From positions 1 through 64,000 of IMG/VR virus record IMGVR_UViG_3300031787_000068: DNA of 64,000 nt. One strand, written 5' to 3'. Shown here in pieces: positions 14,887 to 31,828 of this stretch. A model generated the notes under the pieces. That model worked only from the letters and a program-made list of their open reading frames with translations. It did not search any database and was not told where the DNA came from. Origin of the DNA: a virus. Numbering within the stretch: the first letter of the stretch is position 1; the number at the start of each line of letters is the position of its first letter. A program made the position numbers and the translations under genes.

Positions 14887-15960
14887 ATGAAAAATCTGGA
14901 AAAATTTTCAAATTGGGATTTAAACGAATCTTATTCTTCTTCTAGCTTTAAATGGGTATCTCCCCCTAAGAATATAACATTCCCCCAGAAATCGGCTATA
15001 GAGGGTAAGATGTCTATACACGGAATAGATCTTAAAGAAAATTTAAATTTTTCTTGCACCGGAAAAGCCTGGGAATCTCTAAAAAATAGAATGGCCAAAA
15101 GCAAAATACCTTTTAAAATAATAAATCCAGCTAAAGGATCTAATCAATTTATAAAATCTGGGGAAAAAATAATTTATTCGGACCAAAGGCCTTTGATATC
15201 TAAAAATATAGAAAATGAAAAAGTTTTAGGGTATTACCCTTCTTCTTATAAAGGAGAAGCTCTAGAAGAATCTTGGGTTGTTGGGGTTTGGGAAAACGAA
15301 TCAGGTAAAAAATATTTAAAGGAAATGTCCCTAAAAAATTTTTTAACTAGAAGTACTAAGGATATAATCAAGAAAGATTTTTTAGGAACTTCTTCGGTCA
15401 AGCTGGACGAATCTCTACAGGCTAAGATAAACAAAAAAGACTATTGGACCCTTATTACCATAATAGCTTGTGAAAATTACATAGATCAATCCCAAGGAAT
15501 GGCAGATGTTGCTCAGTCTATATACAATAGATACCACGTAAAAGGAAAACCTTACGGAAAAACAATAGCAGATATAATATTAACAAAAGGACAATATTCT
15601 CCTGTAACAAAGGGACTTAAAAAAGGAGCAGATTGGAAAAATATAACAGATAGGAATAAAGCTATAAATGTTTATATGAAAAGCATGGGAATGAATCTTG
15701 CTAATTCCACCAAAGCAATAGATCAAGCGGTAAAAGCCCAAGCTAACAAATCTCTTGTAGATAAAGCAAAATCCCACGTTAAGACGAGAACAGAATTTTT
15801 AGCTGATAAACCTAAGGGTTCTTCCGCTGCTAGCCCGGTAGAAAGAGATTCCAAAAACAAAAATAATTCTTTTTTCTGGAATTATGCGGGGAAAACTAAC
15901 TATTATTCTAAAAATGATTTTAAAGCAAGATCGATTCCTTCGGAAGTTAAAATTGCTTAA
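14887..15960 (+). CDS. Capsid-targeted SleB-like cell wall hydrolase
   Basis: 357 aa. The leader MKNLEKFSNWDLNESY has L-N-E at 12-14. A beta-rich region (20-150) precedes a domain at about 190-260 with IIACENYIDQSQGMADVAQ, then IYNRYH, then GKTIADII and GQYSP. This is the SleB/hydrolase-2 layout, in which the Glu (here Glu196) is catalytic and VA..IYNR follows; family members cut glycan strands of peptidoglycan. The last 80 residues are basic and disordered-looking. With the CHAP-type protein it makes a second wall hydrolase carrying the same head leader. A late-type element lies upstream. Confidence 0.8.
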   Translation: MKNLEKFSNWDLNESYSSSSFKWVSPPKNITFPQKSAIEGKMSIHGIDLKENLNFSCTGKAWESLKNRMAKSKIPFKIINPAKGSNQFIKSGEKIIYSDQRPLISKNIENEKVLGYYPSSYKGEALEESWVVGVWENESGKKYLKEMSLKNFLTRSTKDIIKKDFLGTSSVKLDESLQAKINKKDYWTLITIIACENYIDQSQGMADVAQSIYNRYHVKGKPYGKTIADIILTKGQYSPVTKGLKKGADWKNITDRNKAINVYMKSMGMNLANSTKAIDQAVKAQANKSLVDKAKSHVKTRTEFLADKPKGSSAASPVERDSKNKNNSFFWNYAGKTNYYSKNDFKARSIPSEVKIA

Positions 15961-23616: not shown

Positions 23617-26115
23617 ATGAGTTTCGGATTTTCAGGAGCTACGGATAGAAATAGGTATAGGTTTCTAAGCGGCTTTAAACTTAATGATCAAGGGAAAAAC
23701 GAGGATCCAACATATCTTGGGTTTTCGGTAGATTTTGATTTTGGGGTTTTGGATATAGATTTAGAATATGGAACCCCAATAAGTCCTCTTTTTAGGGATT
23801 CGAATTATGAAAACCCCACCGGAAGAAACCTATTCGGACAGCTACAATATATTGGAAGAAGCGATCCTAGTGTTCTTTTTTATTGTGCCCAAGGCTATTT
23901 AAACGAGAGAGAAAAAAGAGTAGGTCAGGGATTCCCGGAGGGAGGAGGAAAAAGATCCCAGATGCTTAAACAATTTAAAATCCTTTTAAGGGACATAACT
24001 AGAAATCAGCCTTGGTTTTTTCAATCTATAGATGGACTAGATTCTTTATATAAAGTTGCTAGACCAGGATTTCAAACGGAAACACTGGAAAGCGACTTTA
24101 ATCCATCCAGAGCTGCAACCATAACCATCAATACATTAGAATCCCTAAATCTTAGAATTACTGCTTTAGCAGATCTCTATAATCATGCCACCTTCGATTT
24201 CATAAATATGAGGGAAACTATTCCTCGAAATCTTAGAAGATTTCGAATGTATATTTATGTTACCGATTTGAGAAATTTCTTTAAGACCAATAGGCTTATT
24301 AATTCGTCTACTACTCTTTCCACTATAAATAATTTTTCAAATCTTTTAGGATCAGGTATAAATCCCGGGAATAGCTTATCCGGGGGAACCCTAGATAGTA
24401 CAGGGGATTTTCCGGACGATACAGGAGCACAGGGAGGAGTTGTCGGAAATGTTCTTGGCGATATAGCAAGATCCGAAGGAGTTACCAATCAACAAGACCA
24501 ATCTGGAATAAAACCGGTAATACTTTTGGAATGCAGTAATTGCGAATTTGATTTTACTGATACCTCTCCAATAGGTAATAGTATAAATGCAGGAACCGAT
24601 TCCGGAGATCAACTAGGACAGAGTTTTAAAATCCACGTAGGTAGAGTTAGAATAAGAAGTCAATACCCTAATATAAGGCTCGACAAAAATCCTCTAATAA
24701 TTTCTGACGATGTATTCACAAATAAAAGCTCACTTCAAAAATATGAAGGAGATCCTTCCGGAAGAACTCTATTTGGGGTAGACTTAGGAGGATCGGATTT
24801 AGCAGAACAGGGAGCAAGTGTTCTTAATAATTTTATAGGAAATACTGTAAATGATCTTTATGATAGAGGAGTTCAGCTAGTATCAGATGCTCTTAGTGGG
24901 GCTGATCAATTGTTATTAGGAAATATATATTCTTTTAATCCTTCTCAGATAACAGGATTTTTATCTGGAAATACCTCCAATCTAAGTCTTAATACTATTA
25001 GAGATTTTGCTAATCAAAGTTCTCAAGTTGATTTAGTTTCTTCTTTTGAAAACGGATTACCAAACCCTCAAACTACGGGACAAGGAGGCCCTCCTCAAAA
25101 TACATATCCTCCTGGTATTTTAACGAATTTAGATCTCTATAGTAAAGTTCCGGGCCAGGATTTAGGGGTTACCCCTCCCGGATCCCCTACAATAGGAAGG
25201 GTTTACCCTCAATTAAAGCCAGAAGACGTTTATAACGGAGTTCCTGGCGGAGATTTAGGTGTTCCCCAAAGAGTTTACAAAGATCCTGAGGGAGATGTAT
25301 ATGGAAATGTTCCGGGAAGTGATCTCGGTCCTCCCCAGAGACTTTATCTTTCACCGGACGAAGGGGATAGATATCCTGAAGTTCCTGGAAAAGATTTAGG
25401 AGTTCCCCAAAGAGTTTATCCCTCCCCCGGGGGAAATTTAGATTCTTATCCTGACGTTCCGGGAAAAGATCTTGGTGTTCCCGAAAGAATATACCCAACC
25501 GTGACGGAAGATTTTTATCCTGATGTTCCGGGAAGAGATCTAGGAGTTCCTAACAGACTATACCCAGAAGTAAAAGACGATGTTTACCCAGAAGTTCCAG
25601 GAAGAGATCTAGGAGTTCCTAATAGGCTATACCCAGAAGTAAAAGACGATGTTTACAAAGAGGTTCCGGGAAGAGATCTAGGGGTTCCGGAAAGATCATA
25701 CCCTATCGTTAAAGACGATGTTTATAAAGAAGTTCCCGGAAAAGACCTAGGAGTTCCAGGAAGAAGATATGATGGAGTTAATCAAAACGTTTATCAAAAT
25801 TCTCCTAATGTATCCAATCAATTAAATCCTCAGCCTAGAATATATGAAGATGAGCCAGCAAAAAATCCAGGAATCCTAGGAGATGTTTATTTGAATCAGA
25901 TCGAAAACCCTAGTGAATTTAAAACCAAACCTTCCCCGGTTTATCCTAGAGAAGAAACTAAATACTTTAGAGGAAATCTAGGAGATCTATATCCTCCAAC
26001 AAGAGAAGATTTTAATCCGGACGAACCTGGGGATTTAGGAAACTTAAAACCTAAAGATTCGTATAATATAAGTCTCGGAGGTAAAAATCCGGATCCTACT
26101 AAATTTAATTCTTAA
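23617..26115 (+). CDS. Baseplate structural protein with C-terminal proline-rich tandem repeats
   Basis: 832 aa. The N-terminal 350 residues contain PWFFQSIDGLDSLYK, a helical LESLNLRITALADLYNHA and RRFRMYIYVTDLR, giving the look of a folded tube/baseplate domain. Residues about 508-720 are nine tandem units of about 23 aa with the core VPG-x-DLGVP-x-R-x-YP; the tail has further degenerate copies. The repeats probably form an extended, flexible proline-rich arm that could act as a length-setting or docking element next to the spike. Its stop overlaps the spike gene's start. No enzyme motif. Confidence 0.7.
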   Translation: MSFGFSGATDRNRYRFLSGFKLNDQGKNEDPTYLGFSVDFDFGVLDIDLEYGTPISPLFRDSNYENPTGRNLFGQLQYIGRSDPSVLFYCAQGYLNEREKRVGQGFPEGGGKRSQMLKQFKILLRDITRNQPWFFQSIDGLDSLYKVARPGFQTETLESDFNPSRAATITINTLESLNLRITALADLYNHATFDFINMRETIPRNLRRFRMYIYVTDLRNFFKTNRLINSSTTLSTINNFSNLLGSGINPGNSLSGGTLDSTGDFPDDTGAQGGVVGNVLGDIARSEGVTNQQDQSGIKPVILLECSNCEFDFTDTSPIGNSINAGTDSGDQLGQSFKIHVGRVRIRSQYPNIRLDKNPLIISDDVFTNKSSLQKYEGDPSGRTLFGVDLGGSDLAEQGASVLNNFIGNTVNDLYDRGVQLVSDALSGADQLLLGNIYSFNPSQITGFLSGNTSNLSLNTIRDFANQSSQVDLVSSFENGLPNPQTTGQGGPPQNTYPPGILTNLDLYSKVPGQDLGVTPPGSPTIGRVYPQLKPEDVYNGVPGGDLGVPQRVYKDPEGDVYGNVPGSDLGPPQRLYLSPDEGDRYPEVPGKDLGVPQRVYPSPGGNLDSYPDVPGKDLGVPERIYPTVTEDFYPDVPGRDLGVPNRLYPEVKDDVYPEVPGRDLGVPNRLYPEVKDDVYKEVPGRDLGVPERSYPIVKDDVYKEVPGKDLGVPGRRYDGVNQNVYQNSPNVSNQLNPQPRIYEDEPAKNPGILGDVYLNQIENPSEFKTKPSPVYPREETKYFRGNLGDLYPPTREDFNPDEPGDLGNLKPKDSYNISLGGKNPDPTKFNS
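25141..25775 (+). repeat. In-frame tandem repeats, about 69-75 bp, nine units
   Basis: Coding repeats inside the 832-aa protein with the core DLGVP. The middle units around 25520-25740 are nearly identical at DNA level, including a repeated run encoding YPEVKDD, while outer units have diverged. This pattern suggests recent unit expansion by slippage or recombination. Confidence 0.9.
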
Positions 26116-26783
26116 TGCCGTCTAATAAATCTTATCTAGGAGTAATAGTTGATATAGCAGACCCTTTAAAACAGGGTAGAGCTAGGGTTAGAGTTTTTGG
26201 TATATTTGACGATATACCAGTTGAAGATCTACCTTGGGCAGAGCCAGGAACTGCATGTGAATATTTCGGTGGAGGTGGAGGTGGAGGAGCTGTAAGTGTT
26301 CCTAGAGTAGGTGCTGTAGTATATTGTTCTTTTGAAGGTGAAAATTATTATAAATTGTATTTCGATACAATAAAGGAATTTTGTCCTGAACTTGTAGATG
26401 AAATGAATGAAGAAAATTCTTATGAGGGATTTCATTCCATAATATATGATACAGAAGCTCAGCCTGGACCTTTAAAATTATTTTATAGCCGAAAAAAAGG
26501 TCTAGTTTTTGAGTTGGGGGAAGCTAAAGTTCAATTGGATACCCAAAACGGAGGAAAATTGAGAGTTGTCCTAAAGATGGGAGAAGACGAAATAAGAATG
26601 GAAAACAATAAAGTTATCGTAAATTCCTTAAATATAGAATTGGGGGAGGGAGCAGTTCAATCTGTAATACTTGGTGATCTATTTAAAACTATATACGATA
26701 CCCATACCCATGCGGGAGCAGGATCTCCTCCTGTCGTTCCTCTCCCCACTTCAGTATTAAGTAAAACCTCTAAAACTAAGTAA
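26115..26783 (+). CDS. gp5-like baseplate spike with OB-fold, no lysozyme domain
   Basis: 222 aa. The N-terminal OB-fold (LGVIVDIADPLKQGRARV, then VFGIFDDIP) is the gp5/VgrG-type spike base. It has an unusual run of seven glycines near residue 53, then VPRVGAVVYCSF. A narrow beta part (about 125-185) follows with repeated short strands. The tip has YDTHTHAG, with His197 and His199 in an H-x-H pair like those that bind an iron ion at the apex of P2 gpV-type spikes. T4 gp5 carries a lysozyme between OB-fold and needle; here there is none. The start overlaps the previous stop (TAATG). Confidence 0.82.
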   Translation: MPSNKSYLGVIVDIADPLKQGRARVRVFGIFDDIPVEDLPWAEPGTACEYFGGGGGGGAVSVPRVGAVVYCSFEGENYYKLYFDTIKEFCPELVDEMNEENSYEGFHSIIYDTEAQPGPLKLFYSRKKGLVFELGEAKVQLDTQNGGKLRVVLKMGEDEIRMENNKVIVNSLNIELGEGAVQSVILGDLFKTIYDTHTHAGAGSPPVVPLPTSVLSKTSKTK

Positions 26784-26786
26784 CCT

Positions 26787-27428
26787 ATGTCTTTAAAAGC
26801 TCAAACTGAAATATTAAGCAAATTGGGAAATCTCGGAGAATCTATTCCAGGATTAAGTCCTGGACCTATAATTGATAAGCTAGCCAAGGAAAGTGAAGAG
26901 ATTAAAACCATTACAGATTCTATAGATACCGAAGTAGAAGAAGAGATTGAAAGAGCAAAAAGATCGGAAGATAAAACAAAATCGGAAGAGGAAAGAAAAG
27001 CGGAAAGGGATCAAAAAATAAAAGAATCCAGAAAAAAAGCAGATGCCCAAAAAAAGAAAATAATAGATTCGTTTAAAAAAAATATAAAAGGCATAGTCGA
27101 AGAAAAAATAACTGTAATAAAACAAAATTATAAAGTATTTAAAGATTCTATAGATTCTATACCCCCTGATGTTACAGCTCTAATAAGTAACATCGCTCTT
27201 CCCCCTGCAATAACAGCTCCTCCTGGTGCTCCTAATCCCCTTTATGCTATAAATCTAGCAAAGCAAGGGAAAAATACTTTAGGTAGAACTTTAAATGCTG
27301 CCATAGTTGCTTTTACCGAAGTACTAAAAGCTGCCAATGCAATAAAATTTGAGATCCCCCAATTTATATTGTCTCTTTTTGAGAAAATATCCATTGTAAA
27401 TAATGTTATCTCTTCTATACCTATATAA
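26787..27428 (+). CDS. Coiled-coil structural protein
   Basis: 213 aa. A long, highly charged Lys/Glu/Arg helix spans about 30-110 (repeated EE-x-ER-x-K patterns). It is followed by a Pro/Ala-rich loop (ALPPAITAPPGAPNP near 135) and a final helical region rich in Ala/Ile/Phe. It could be a rod linking spike or hub to other wedge parts, or a small chaperone. No family recognised. Located directly after the spike gene. Confidence 0.65.
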   Translation: MSLKAQTEILSKLGNLGESIPGLSPGPIIDKLAKESEEIKTITDSIDTEVEEEIERAKRSEDKTKSEEERKAERDQKIKESRKKADAQKKKIIDSFKKNIKGIVEEKITVIKQNYKVFKDSIDSIPPDVTALISNIALPPAITAPPGAPNPLYAINLAKQGKNTLGRTLNAAIVAFTEVLKAANAIKFEIPQFILSLFEKISIVNNVISSIPI

Positions 27429-27451
27429 TTCTCTTTATTGTTTTTTGTAGA

Positions 27452-27462
27452 GATATATATAG
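27452..27462 (+). promoter_or_regulatory. Late-promoter-like element GATATATATAG
   Basis: Expanded version with one extra AT, 15 bases before the start at 27467. Confidence 0.45.
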
Positions 27463-27466
27463 ATAA

Positions 27467-28870
27467 ATGAGCGAAAGAAATCACATAGATAAACTTAATG
27501 CACTTTCTTCTTCTGTTATAGGATTCGAATTTGAATTTTATACTAATATGCTGAAGGGGGAAGCTGCTGAATCTATAGGGAAGGAGATAAAAAAGAAAGT
27601 TCAGGTATCTGAGAAATACCATTCTGAATTAAAAGTCACTTCATCTCTTTTTAAATTGGAACCCGATTACTCGGGGGGTAATAAAATGGTAGAGCTTATA
27701 ACTGGACCTATGGAATATTCGGAAGCTATTCCGGTTATGATAAAAATTCTAAACTGGATAGAAAAAAATGGGTGGACCGATGATAGGTGTGCATTTCAAT
27801 TTTCTCTTAGTTTCGATAAATTTAGAAGAGAGATAAAAGATAGGATAGAAAATCTAGATAAGCTTAAATTTATATTAGGTCTTGATGAAAATTTTATTTA
27901 TTCTAAATTCGGAAATAGATCGAATAATGTTTATGCAAATACGGTTAAAAGGGTAGTTCCCGTTAACAGATTTTCTATGCTTGAAAATATAACTAGCATA
28001 GACCCTAGACTATTTAAAGTTCCTGATGAAAAATATTACGGGGTAAACTTTACTAAGCTAAAAGATGGATATCTAGAATTTAGATATCTTGGAAATAGGG
28101 ATTATCAGAAAAAAATTAAAGAGATAAGAGAGGTTGTAGATTATGTCATTTTGTATCTTTATGATATCCTAAGTCATAGGACTAACGGATACACAAAAGA
28201 AGATTTAGCAAAATTAAAAGAAATGATGAAGGAATATAGCAAAGTCGTTAGATGCTATAGTAATCCGGAATTATTTTTTATGAATTTCCCTGACTTCCAC
28301 ATATTCGTAGATCTAAAAGGCCTTGATGAAAATATAAAAACTTATTTTCCGATGATAAAAGATAAAATATTTGAGCTTGTCGTCGATGGAAATGTTAGAT
28401 CTTGCTATTTTAATTATGACACGACAAACGGAAGATATCAGGTAAAAGAAGCAAGAATAAGGGATTTTATGAAAATTAAGGATATGGATTTAATATCCTG
28501 TGATATAAAAGGAGGAGCTTTAGAAAATTGTAATCTTTTTACTTGTGACATAAAAAAATCCAGAATAGAGAATTGCAATGTGGCAAACGGATGTAAAATA
28601 ATATCATCTAAAGTTAACGATAGCGTGGTAGAATTTTCAAACGAGCTTAAAAATTGTTTTGTTGACTGCAAAGGAAAAAACATTAACGGTAAGATGGAAG
28701 GAGGGGTTTTTAGAGCTGGGAATATAGGGGAATACGCTGAAATAAGTAAGGATACCGTGAAAGTTAAAGGATTCAACGAACTTAGAGATGAGAGATTCGT
28801 AACGGATACAAGACTAAAAGATTTGAATTTCGATTACAAAAAACCAAAATTTGGAAATATAAACTACTAG
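27467..28870 (+). CDS. Amidoligase-like protein with C-terminal beta-helix-like repeats
   Basis: 467 aa. The N-terminal half has VIGFEFEFYT near 17-26, then NKMVELITGPM near 75, and YLEFRYLGNRDYQ near 205. These correspond to the Glu-bearing strands of the amidoligase/glutamine-synthetase-like COOH-NH2 ligase fold (G-x-E-x-E-F, E-L-x-T-x-P, E-F-R). The usual CGxHVH strand reads CAFQFSLS, so the His pair is absent. Residues about 340-430 repeat short strands with Cys/Asn every 8-12 residues (SCDIKGG, NCNLFTCDIK, ENCNVANG), resembling a small right-handed beta helix. It stands among baseplate genes with its own late-type element. Such ligases form amide or isopeptide bonds; the substrate is unknown, and loss of the His pair may mean a non-catalytic scaffold. 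Confidence 0.55.
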   Translation: MSERNHIDKLNALSSSVIGFEFEFYTNMLKGEAAESIGKEIKKKVQVSEKYHSELKVTSSLFKLEPDYSGGNKMVELITGPMEYSEAIPVMIKILNWIEKNGWTDDRCAFQFSLSFDKFRREIKDRIENLDKLKFILGLDENFIYSKFGNRSNNVYANTVKRVVPVNRFSMLENITSIDPRLFKVPDEKYYGVNFTKLKDGYLEFRYLGNRDYQKKIKEIREVVDYVILYLYDILSHRTNGYTKEDLAKLKEMMKEYSKVVRCYSNPELFFMNFPDFHIFVDLKGLDENIKTYFPMIKDKIFELVVDGNVRSCYFNYDTTNGRYQVKEARIRDFMKIKDMDLISCDIKGGALENCNLFTCDIKKSRIENCNVANGCKIISSKVNDSVVEFSNELKNCFVDCKGKNINGKMEGGVFRAGNIGEYAEISKDTVKVKGFNELRDERFVTDTRLKDLNFDYKKPKFGNINY

Positions 28871-28873
28871 AAA

Positions 28874-29668
28874 ATGACATTAGACGAATTAATACAAGAA
28901 ATAGAAGATGCTATATCTTTTAGTTGCTCTCTCCCTTATAATCTTAATAGACAGGAGACCGAAAGAATCATAAAAAGAGCTCGAGCTTGGTTTTATGACA
29001 ATTACCAATATGCGGTAGAAGAAAGGATAATGGTTCTAGCAAATCAGCTATTCAATCATCCCGAATTTAGAAAAACCAGACAACTAAAGCTTCCTGATTC
29101 TATAGTAACTGTATTTGACGTTAGAGAAGTTGGGGGTGCTGGGATCTCTGGGAATCCCGACAGGGATTTTAGTGATTCTAAACTTTTAGGTTCTGAATTA
29201 TTGCTTTCCCCTTTTATCGGAGACAATCTTGTATATAGAACCGTCATGTACTCTTACTTCGACCTAGCAAAAGCTTATTTATTACCTACCTATGCTTTCA
29301 AATGGAATAAAAATAGTAAATTTTTAACTATATTAGGTAGAGATCCAGGGAGAAGCGGAAAAGGAGGAGGATCCCAGCAGGCTCAGCTAGCCCAGGGATT
29401 TGGGTCCGGAGGAACCGATGTGGCAGTAAGGTGCTTTGTTGCTATAAATGATGAATATCTTTACGATGATGAATTATTTGTTAGGTATTGTATCGGAAAA
29501 TGTAAAGTAGCATTGGGAACTATGCTAGGAGTATTTTCTTATACTCTTCCGGGAGGAGTCCAAGTCAATTCAGCGGATATAAAATCAAATGGAGAAGCGG
29601 AGATACAAGAAGTAATGGAAATGATAAACGGAGAAAATACGGCTTCTTATTTCTTACAGTGGTCTTAA
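28874..29668 (+). CDS. Conserved structural protein, possibly neck/connector (gp13-like)
   Basis: 264 aa. An N-terminal helical pair (IIKRARAWFYDNYQYAVE) is followed by RQLKLPDSIVTVFDVREV, a pattern of helix, Leu-Pro, then strands like that of T4-type neck protein gp13. A Gly/Ser-rich loop near 160-178 and a helical GKCKVALGTMLGVFSYTLP segment follow, ending in aromatic residues FLQW. The assignment is weak: position between the amidoligase-like and gp25-like genes would also suit a wedge component. Closed by a hairpin terminator at its stop codon. Confidence 0.6.
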   Translation: MTLDELIQEIEDAISFSCSLPYNLNRQETERIIKRARAWFYDNYQYAVEERIMVLANQLFNHPEFRKTRQLKLPDSIVTVFDVREVGGAGISGNPDRDFSDSKLLGSELLLSPFIGDNLVYRTVMYSYFDLAKAYLLPTYAFKWNKNSKFLTILGRDPGRSGKGGGSQQAQLAQGFGSGGTDVAVRCFVAINDEYLYDDELFVRYCIGKCKVALGTMLGVFSYTLPGGVQVNSADIKSNGEAEIQEVMEMINGENTASYFLQWS

Positions 29669-29726: not shown

Positions 29727-30101
29727 ATGCTTAGAGAAATCTATAATAGAGATCCGGAAGATCCAAATTACAAAGAAAATCAATTAGAGGTAACCGATCC
29801 ACTCGAAGCTTGTCTGGGGAAAATTAAAATGCTTTTTTTCACTAGAAAGGGAGAGGTTTTAGGGGATCCTAGCTTTGGATTAGATCTTGAAGAATACATA
29901 TATGATTTGAATTTAACGGAAGCAGCTATGAAAAAACAAATACAGAATAATATAGAAGCATATATACCAGAATTTGAATCCCTGGGAGGAACCTATGAAC
30001 TTAAATTTTATTTGGGGACTAATAGAGATATTGCTACTTTAGATTTTAGGTTTAATTCCAATTCCGGATTAAGTCCTCTTGTTACACTATTAATTAGTTA
30101 A
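29727..30101 (+). CDS. gp25-like baseplate wedge protein
   Basis: 124 aa, the usual size (T4 gp25 is 132 aa). Central motif FFTRKGEVLGDPSFGLDLEEYIYD near 33-56 matches the gp25/W family core (L-x-T-x-x-GE-x-x-x-P-x-FG). In contractile tails this protein sits at the wedge core and helps start sheath assembly. An upstream ATG at 29723 runs into a stop after three codons. It heads the operon with the gp6-like gene three bases downstream. Confidence 0.85.
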   Translation: MLREIYNRDPEDPNYKENQLEVTDPLEACLGKIKMLFFTRKGEVLGDPSFGLDLEEYIYDLNLTEAAMKKQIQNNIEAYIPEFESLGGTYELKFYLGTNRDIATLDFRFNSNSGLSPLVTLLIS

Positions 30102-30103
30102 AA

Positions 30104-31828
30104 ATGAATATTTATAAAAAGAATAACATATTAATATCCGGTCTATTATCTAGTACCTATTCTTTCATAACAAAGACTTATTCTCAAAGCAGAAATCTAT
30201 TTACTGTTGCTTCTGCATGGGGACAGATTACTTTCGTTTTTCAAAATATTTCTCAACTTATTCTTTATTTCATAGAGGATTCGATAACTGAATTAAATAT
30301 AGAACAAGCTACCAGAGATTATTCGATAAGGAGTCTTGCAAGAATATCGGGGTATGATCCTAAAAGAACAAATGCTTCTCAGGGAGAAGTCATTGTTACC
30401 TGGAATGCTTCCAATACTCAAGCAGGAGGAGGATCTATAATAATACCAAGAAATACCCAAATTAGAAATCAACAAAACGGACAAACCTACACTTTGATTC
30501 TTTCCTCCGATAGAATAACCATTCCCCTCTCATCTCAATCCCAGCCTCAGGTTTTTAAAGTGGTTCAAGGAACATTCGATTCTACTACTTTTACTTCTAC
30601 GGGTTCTCCCCTATTAAGTTTTAATATCCCGGTTATAAACGGGCAGTATATAGATCAATTTTACGTGGACGTGTATGTTAACGAGGAAAAATGGAGAAAA
30701 TATGATTCTCTCTATGATATACCTTTAAACGGAAAGGGATACATAATAAAAAGCGGAATAGCTAGCGGGGTGGACGTTTATTTTGGTAATTCTTTTTTCG
30801 GAAGAATCCCTCAAGGAGGATCTAGAATTAGGGTAGAATATCTTTCAAATATAGGAATAAAAGGAAATGTTTATTCTTCACAAAATAACCCTTTAACTTG
30901 GAAATTTTCTACAGAAGGAACTGATTTATACGGAGCATCTGCGGATTTAAATTTATACCTAAATATCACAAATTCTTTGGACCCGGATTTTGGAACAGAT
31001 CCCGACCCGACATCATTAATTAGAGTAGTTGCTCCTAAAACTAGTAGATCTTTTGTATTTGCAAATGCAGAAAGCTACGAAATCTTTTTAAATAAATTGG
31101 GAATATTTTCTCAAATACAGGCTTATTCCACGTTCGAAGATGAAAATTTGGACGACGATAACGTTATTTACATTTATCTGGTTCCTGATATAACATTAAA
31201 TATAGCTTCTAATCAGGACTATTTTAGTGTTCCTATCCAAAACTTTATTCTTACTGGGGATCAAAAAAATAGAATATTAAATTTAATAGAGGATTCAGGA
31301 TCTATGATAGCTACTACTGTGGTTCAAATAGTAGATCCGATTATTAAAAAATTCATTTTAAACATAACCATAAGTACTTTTCAGGGATTTGATCCCAATA
31401 CCATTAAACAACAGATAAGAAACAAGATATCAGATTACATGTTAAATCTAAAAAGAAGGGATAAGATACCTAGATCTGACATGATTGCAATAGTAGAATC
31501 CGTTTCTGGGGTAGACTCCGTTTTTGTTGAATTTATATCTCAGGAGGATCAAGAAGCTTTAATAGCACTTCAGAATACTGGGGGATCTGGACAGACCGTG
31601 AATTATCAATCAAGCTCCATAGACACTTTTGGTGATATTATAATAGGAATGAATCAACTAGTTCTTCTTAGAGGGGGGTGGACAGATTTGGAAGGAAATA
31701 ATTATACAATTAGCCCGGTAACCGGAAGTCTAGGACCGATAAATATAACTATCCAAGGAGCTCCGGTTCCTGTTAATTTCAACAATCAATTGAATTCTAC
31801 AACTAGACAATCTATAATAAATAAATAA
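30104..31828 (+). CDS. gp6/J-like baseplate wedge protein
   Basis: 574 aa. The order gp25-like then gp6-like is the conserved contractile-tail arrangement. The N-terminal helical part (to about 85, SIRSLARISGYDPKR) leads to a beta-rich region with YIDQFYVDVYVNEEKW. Near 420-485 the baseplate-J-type ending appears: KKFILNITISTFQGFD, then IRNKISDYMLNLKRRDKI and a strand with VESVSGVDSVFVEF. This protein forms the inner ring of the wedges. Tightly spaced with the next gene (one base). Confidence 0.8.
   Translation: MNIYKKNNILISGLLSSTYSFITKTYSQSRNLFTVASAWGQITFVFQNISQLILYFIEDSITELNIEQATRDYSIRSLARISGYDPKRTNASQGEVIVTWNASNTQAGGGSIIIPRNTQIRNQQNGQTYTLILSSDRITIPLSSQSQPQVFKVVQGTFDSTTFTSTGSPLLSFNIPVINGQYIDQFYVDVYVNEEKWRKYDSLYDIPLNGKGYIIKSGIASGVDVYFGNSFFGRIPQGGSRIRVEYLSNIGIKGNVYSSQNNPLTWKFSTEGTDLYGASADLNLYLNITNSLDPDFGTDPDPTSLIRVVAPKTSRSFVFANAESYEIFLNKLGIFSQIQAYSTFEDENLDDDNVIYIYLVPDITLNIASNQDYFSVPIQNFILTGDQKNRILNLIEDSGSMIATTVVQIVDPIIKKFILNITISTFQGFDPNTIKQQIRNKISDYMLNLKRRDKIPRSDMIAIVESVSGVDSVFVEFISQEDQEALIALQNTGGSGQTVNYQSSSIDTFGDIIIGMNQLVLLRGGWTDLEGNNYTISPVTGSLGPINITIQGAPVPVNFNNQLNSTTRQSIINK

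Follow-up and report, generated by a model that had tools for sequence, protein, structure and literature searches.

An amidoligase-like protein with a pentapeptide-repeat helix in a viral baseplate gene neighborhood

Many phages have genes annotated as amide-ligating enzymes, but none of the papers that we found establishes the substrate of such an enzyme. The closest described systems are the phage members of Amidoligase_2 (PF12224), e.g. those of Pseudomonas phage PA11, Escherichia phage Bas93 and Atu_ph07 (gp196); canonical phage amidoligases are mostly encoded beside amidotransferases, ATP-grasp enzymes and cyclotransferases. The wider superfamily, with its common metal/ATP motif logic, includes glutamine synthetase (GS), gamma-glutamylcysteine synthetase and the Pup ligase PafA.

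The gene studied here (27467-28870, plus strand) lies in a 64,000-nt stretch of huge-phage DNA, referred to below as the window. It is an intact open reading frame with an ATG start and encodes 467 amino acids, in which a GS-fold amidoligase-like domain is followed by a pentapeptide-repeat beta helix. The protein has the same fold as the phage Amidoligase_2 enzymes and shares with them the ExE, DxS, VEL Glu, Asn and ExR positions, but in place of their HVH strand it has QFS (most relatives have HxN), a pentapeptide helix is fused to the domain, and the genes of the window family adjoin baseplate and rpS1-like genes rather than the canonical partners. Its likeness to the GS superfamily lies in predicted fold and in metal/ATP motif logic, whereas identity is about 10%, the domain measures ~300 amino acids and the presumed second-metal His is replaced by Gln.

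Fold and homology of the amidoligase-like protein

We modeled the whole protein with AlphaFold2 using 84 relatives in the alignment (pLDDT 86.5) and residues 1-308 (27467-28390, plus strand) using 61 relatives (pLDDT 91.3). In a Foldseek comparison of the domain with the PDB, every one of the best matches was a glutamine synthetase (E 4.4e-6 with probability 1.0), with low TM-scores of 0.25-0.4 against the solved structures. The similarity of the modeled domain to glutamine synthetase is thus remote yet in agreement with the sequence profiles. A different fold for residues 1-300, which would have refuted the original prediction, was ruled out, as the confident model matches glutamine synthetase. 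Apart from one uncharacterized close relative, the viral Foldseek matches were largely phage amidoligases, that of Atu_ph07 among them (E 7e-11).

The original prediction had assigned GFEFEF, VELITGP and LEFRYLG to amidoligase core strands, and the family alignment bears this out. Aligned against nine canonical phage amidoligases with hhalign (probability 96.5, E 7.1e-10), these segments and CAFQFSLS correspond to the canonical strands ExE, E(L/V)VSP, ExR and CGxHVH, respectively, with CAFQFS placed on CGVHVH. All four are strands in the predicted structure (residues 16-26, 74-78, 203-209 and 109-116). The first core strand (residues 16-26, 27512-27544) carries the invariant Glu21-x-Glu23 and is preceded by a helix that begins at residue 6. 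The segment FKLEPDYSGG...VELITGP (residues 61-81, 27647-27709) holds the invariant Asp67, Ser69 and Glu76, CAFQFSLSF (residues 108-116, 27788-27814) holds Gln111 and Ser113, and LEFRYLG (residues 203-209, 28073-28093) holds the invariant Glu204-x-Arg206, all on the plus strand.

Direct comparison with PF12224, which had been proposed as a check, gave a divided answer. The window protein alone scored 14.3 bits (E 0.037) and so missed the gathering threshold of 22 bits, whereas two relatives ~66% identical to it (G001 and G002) passed with 26.1 and 24.8 bits, and Atu_ph07 gp196 also exceeded it with 30.2 bits. As gp196 additionally scored 71 bits against the family profile, this homologue bridges the window family and the PF12224 amidoligases. 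The protein is accordingly homologous to GS-fold amidoligases and probably works like them; it is a new variant rather than a standard Amidoligase_2 member because the window protein itself lacks the HVH motif and scores below the Pfam threshold.

Atu_ph07 gp196 (L262:14512-16014), from an Agrobacterium phage, was the sole cultured-phage homologue returned by direct search. It is "hypothetical" in RefSeq despite passing PF12224, and adjoins portal and prohead genes. By location it falls inside the CDS 170-215 virion-protein cluster of that phage (PMC6102473).

The C-terminal repeats, read previously as a beta helix, proved to be of the pentapeptide type (residues about 330-420, 28454-28726, plus strand) and end in a conserved GGVFR motif with an invariant Arg416. 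The family profile matched solved pentapeptide-repeat proteins (E 4e-6), relatives of the window protein matched Pentapeptide_4 (6e-6), and Foldseek matches included MfpA and QnrB1; single sequences score under the Pfam cut-offs. By profile and by fold, the right-handed helix resembles the MfpA, Qnr and McbG-like proteins, but, unlike them, it is short and appended to an enzyme domain. The variable tail (residues 421-467, 28727-28867, plus strand) was mostly modeled with low confidence. No PHROG family matched the window protein.

Six huge-phage records, 462-735 kb in length, contain homologues at 30-35% identity (LR756500-LR756504 and LR745206; LR756501 and LR756503 are of equal length and give an equal match), and IMG/VR yielded up to 485 matches per scan. 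This huge-phage amidoligase-like family has apparently not been described so far. Genomes above 634 kb were all placed in the Mahaphage clade, with predicted replication in Bacteroidetes (Al-Shayeb et al., PMC7162821).

Conserved pocket and the His-to-Gln change

Among 84 representatives, with identity down to 29%, 23 positions never vary. E21, E23, D67, S69, E76, R151, N194, E204 and R206 are invariant in 84 of 84. The DxS motif followed by E(L/V)(V/I)(S/T)xP is present, with T79 and G80 near-invariant and P81 found in the window. By correspondence with glutamine synthetase, we take ExE, the VEL-strand Glu, the first His of HxH and ExR to be metal and ATP ligands, and Gln111 would presumably sit at the second metal.

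As had been pointed out from the sequence, the strand that should read CGxHVH does not do so in the window, where Gln111 and Ser113 stand in place of the canonical His-x-His; elsewhere in the family, the clades retain the first His, and Asn takes the place of the second. The His is retained in 61 of 61 sequences outside the Gln group. Every one of the 22 window-clade representatives has Gln at position 111, as does, by a separate change, one further sequence (L141), and in both cases replacement of Asn113 by Ser goes with it (one exception in the window clade). The latter sequence (L141:9959-11359), on the mahaphage side, sits on a long branch, and its placement is less certain. Only eight positions discriminate between the clades, three of them in the CAFQFS strand.

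Between the window gene and relatives at 91-94% identity, omega was 0.024-0.028 with synonymous sites near saturation, and purifying selection on the gene is very strong. The suggestion that the protein could equally be a degenerate scaffold is unlikely because none of the 84 representatives departs from ExE, DxS, the VEL Glu or ExR, and omega is only about 0.025. A local sequencing error or decay in CAFQFS was ruled out, the Gln being fixed in 22 of 22 clade members and recurring in L141. From these alignments, the His-to-Gln replacement is a clade-level switch, a narrow alteration of a pocket that has otherwise stayed fixed, and not decay, and it suggests that the site persists with a changed use of metal, nucleotide or substrate. 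Having arisen twice in parallel, the change is an experiment of nature on what is presumed to be the second metal site of the GS fold.

Baseplate and rpS1-like neighbors

The placement of the gene in a baseplate operon was confirmed by PHROG matches on both sides, all on the plus strand. Upstream lie a gp5-like baseplate hub gene (26115-26783; phrog_430, E 4e-20, N-terminal match only) and a coiled-coil-like gene (26787-27428) in a slot of variable length. Downstream follow a conserved head-tail adaptor Ad2-like gene (28874-29668; phrog_211, E 2e-5, and synteny) and the gp25-like (29727-30101; phrog_261, E 1e-6) and gp6-like (30104-31828; phrog_219, E 2e-30) baseplate wedge genes. The window clade and the marine clade share one gene order: gp5-like, variable gene, rpS1-like, amidoligase, Ad2-like, gp25-like and gp6-like. 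The slot that separates the gp5-like gene from the next conserved one differs widely in length among relatives, from a few dozen bases up to over 5 kb. Mahaphages carry the amidoligase gene near other tail genes or elsewhere, outside the baseplate arrangement. The window also holds an endolysin-like gene (14887-15960) upstream of the tail genes.

The neighbors of the window gene are tail genes, and neither a glutamine amidotransferase, an ATP-grasp enzyme nor a gamma-glutamyl cyclotransferase was found beside it. Within the whole window record and seven related IMG/VR records, all possible fragments, no gamma-glutamyl cyclotransferase was detected, whereas three mahaphage records contain one elsewhere in the record.

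In most relatives, an rpS1-like gene stands between the variable slot and the amidoligase gene. It is directly upstream in 194 of the 204 non-mahaphage loci with enough upstream sequence (some contigs counted twice), and in the window clade the two reading frames mostly overlap by 7-10 nt, with starts assigned mechanically. The gene has four domains (examples are L008:4809-5996 and L254:8842-9975). Its product matched bacterial rpsA over positions 3 to 342 in one clade (E 1e-42) and over part of that range in the other (7e-24), and it also matched solved bS1 chains. In mahaphages, the rpS1-like orthologues are unlinked and lie at other genome positions.

Among the exceptions are five contigs, those of the window and its closest relatives, which have no upstream rpS1-like gene, and none is present in 26787-27466 of the window; the neighbor was therefore invisible from the window alone, as this subclade lacks the gene there. 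In one contig (L028), an S1 gene is found about 1.3 kb upstream of the amidoligase. We searched the available genome fragments of the window and its closest relatives for an rpS1 remnant or a relocated copy and found none. The rpS1-like gene is hence not an obligate neighbor, since the fragments of the window subclade contain the amidoligase gene but no rpS1 gene. Fusions of the two genes were looked for and not found. The papers that we found contained no link between amidoligases and rpS1. In huge phages, rpS1 has been reported and correlated with missing Shine-Dalgarno motifs, with amidoligases unmentioned (Al-Shayeb et al., PMC7162821).

Proposed function, competing explanations and host

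Taking fold, pocket and neighborhood together, we give a probability of about one half to the window gene encoding a late-expressed, ATP-dependent amide-forming enzyme with a macromolecular substrate, most likely a phage-made or ribosome-associated protein. Such a divergent amidoligase would be made late in infection along with the baseplate proteins. Its GS-fold domain would probably bind Mg-ATP via Glu21, Glu23, Glu76, Glu204 and Arg206, phosphorylate a carboxylate (at the C-terminus of a protein or on the side chain of a Glu or Asp) and then join an amine to it, while the pentapeptide-repeat helix would likely serve as a docking module for the protein substrate. In the window clade, Gln has taken the place of the His at the presumed second metal site; Gln111 and Ser113, in the strand that bears the catalytic His of canonical enzymes, count against this enzymatic reading, as do the sub-threshold Pfam score of the window protein, the lack of the canonical partners beside the gene, the rpS1-less fragments of the window subclade and the low TM-scores.

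The original prediction had proposed a virion protein or the host wall as the target, and the neighborhood favors the rpS1-like protein at least as well. The leading substrate candidate in relatives would be the upstream-encoded rpS1-like protein, and the second a co-expressed tail protein. A narrower proposal, which we hold only tentatively and consider unlikely as a whole, is a two-gene module of an S1 mimic and an amidoligase that would covalently modify the viral S1 (or the ribosome that it joins) late in infection, one clade having shifted its active site from His to Gln and the window subclade being without the adjacent S1. RimK, an ATP-grasp ligase, adds glutamate to ribosomal protein S6; it would be a functional analogue of the window family if the S1-like protein is the substrate, although the folds are unrelated. 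If true, the S1-amidoligase module would be a viral counterpart of RimK-type ribosomal-protein ligation built on an unrelated enzyme fold.

The main rival to an amide-forming enzyme, with a real but minor chance of being right, is a structural baseplate component that has kept the amidoligase fold, lost catalysis and is conserved through virion packing. The fixed position that the gene holds in two of the three clades, with hub genes on one side and wedge genes on the other, the His-to-Gln change of the window clade and the lack of adjacent canonical enzymatic partners would all suit such a role. On the other hand, the invariant residues are the amidoligase pocket set (ExE, DxS, VEL Glu, Asn and ExR), also in the clades that keep His; the mahaphage gene has left the baseplate arrangement with this set retained, and the partner gene in relatives is rpS1-like and no known structural protein.

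We consider improbable a small-molecule amide ligase, making gamma-glutamyl-amines or dipeptides in a metabolic or anti-defense role. Glutamine synthetase and gamma-glutamylcysteine synthetase, whose solved folds come nearest, do use small molecules, and the cyclotransferases of the three mahaphage records would fit, but the pentapeptide-repeat fusion together with the rpS1-like and baseplate operon favors a macromolecular target, and the window record and its seven relatives, possibly fragments, show no cyclotransferase. It is very doubtful that the enzyme acts at the cell wall or is delivered with the virion, there to modify the peptides of peptidoglycan or to crosslink proteins of the tail. 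The baseplate-operon location and the endolysin-like gene elsewhere in the window would suit such a role, but the domain fold begins so close to the N-terminus that an export signal would not fit, the homologue in mahaphages lies outside the baseplate arrangement, and no wall-enzyme partner is adjacent.

For the enzymatic reading with a macromolecular substrate, the ties to rpS1-like and baseplate genes provide testable substrates, in a family that is widespread in the largest known phages and has kept its active-site set.

Among GTDB species genomes, relatives of the gene were present on three MAG contigs only, one of them from a Bacteroidetes bin, and no cultured host or prophage was found in that set. 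Upstream of 40 gene starts in the window (878-62326), Shine-Dalgarno-like motifs were at background level and TAAA/AATAA-type motifs were strongly enriched. These TAAA-type, non-Shine-Dalgarno starts fit Bacteroidota-type initiation and a Bacteroidetes host.
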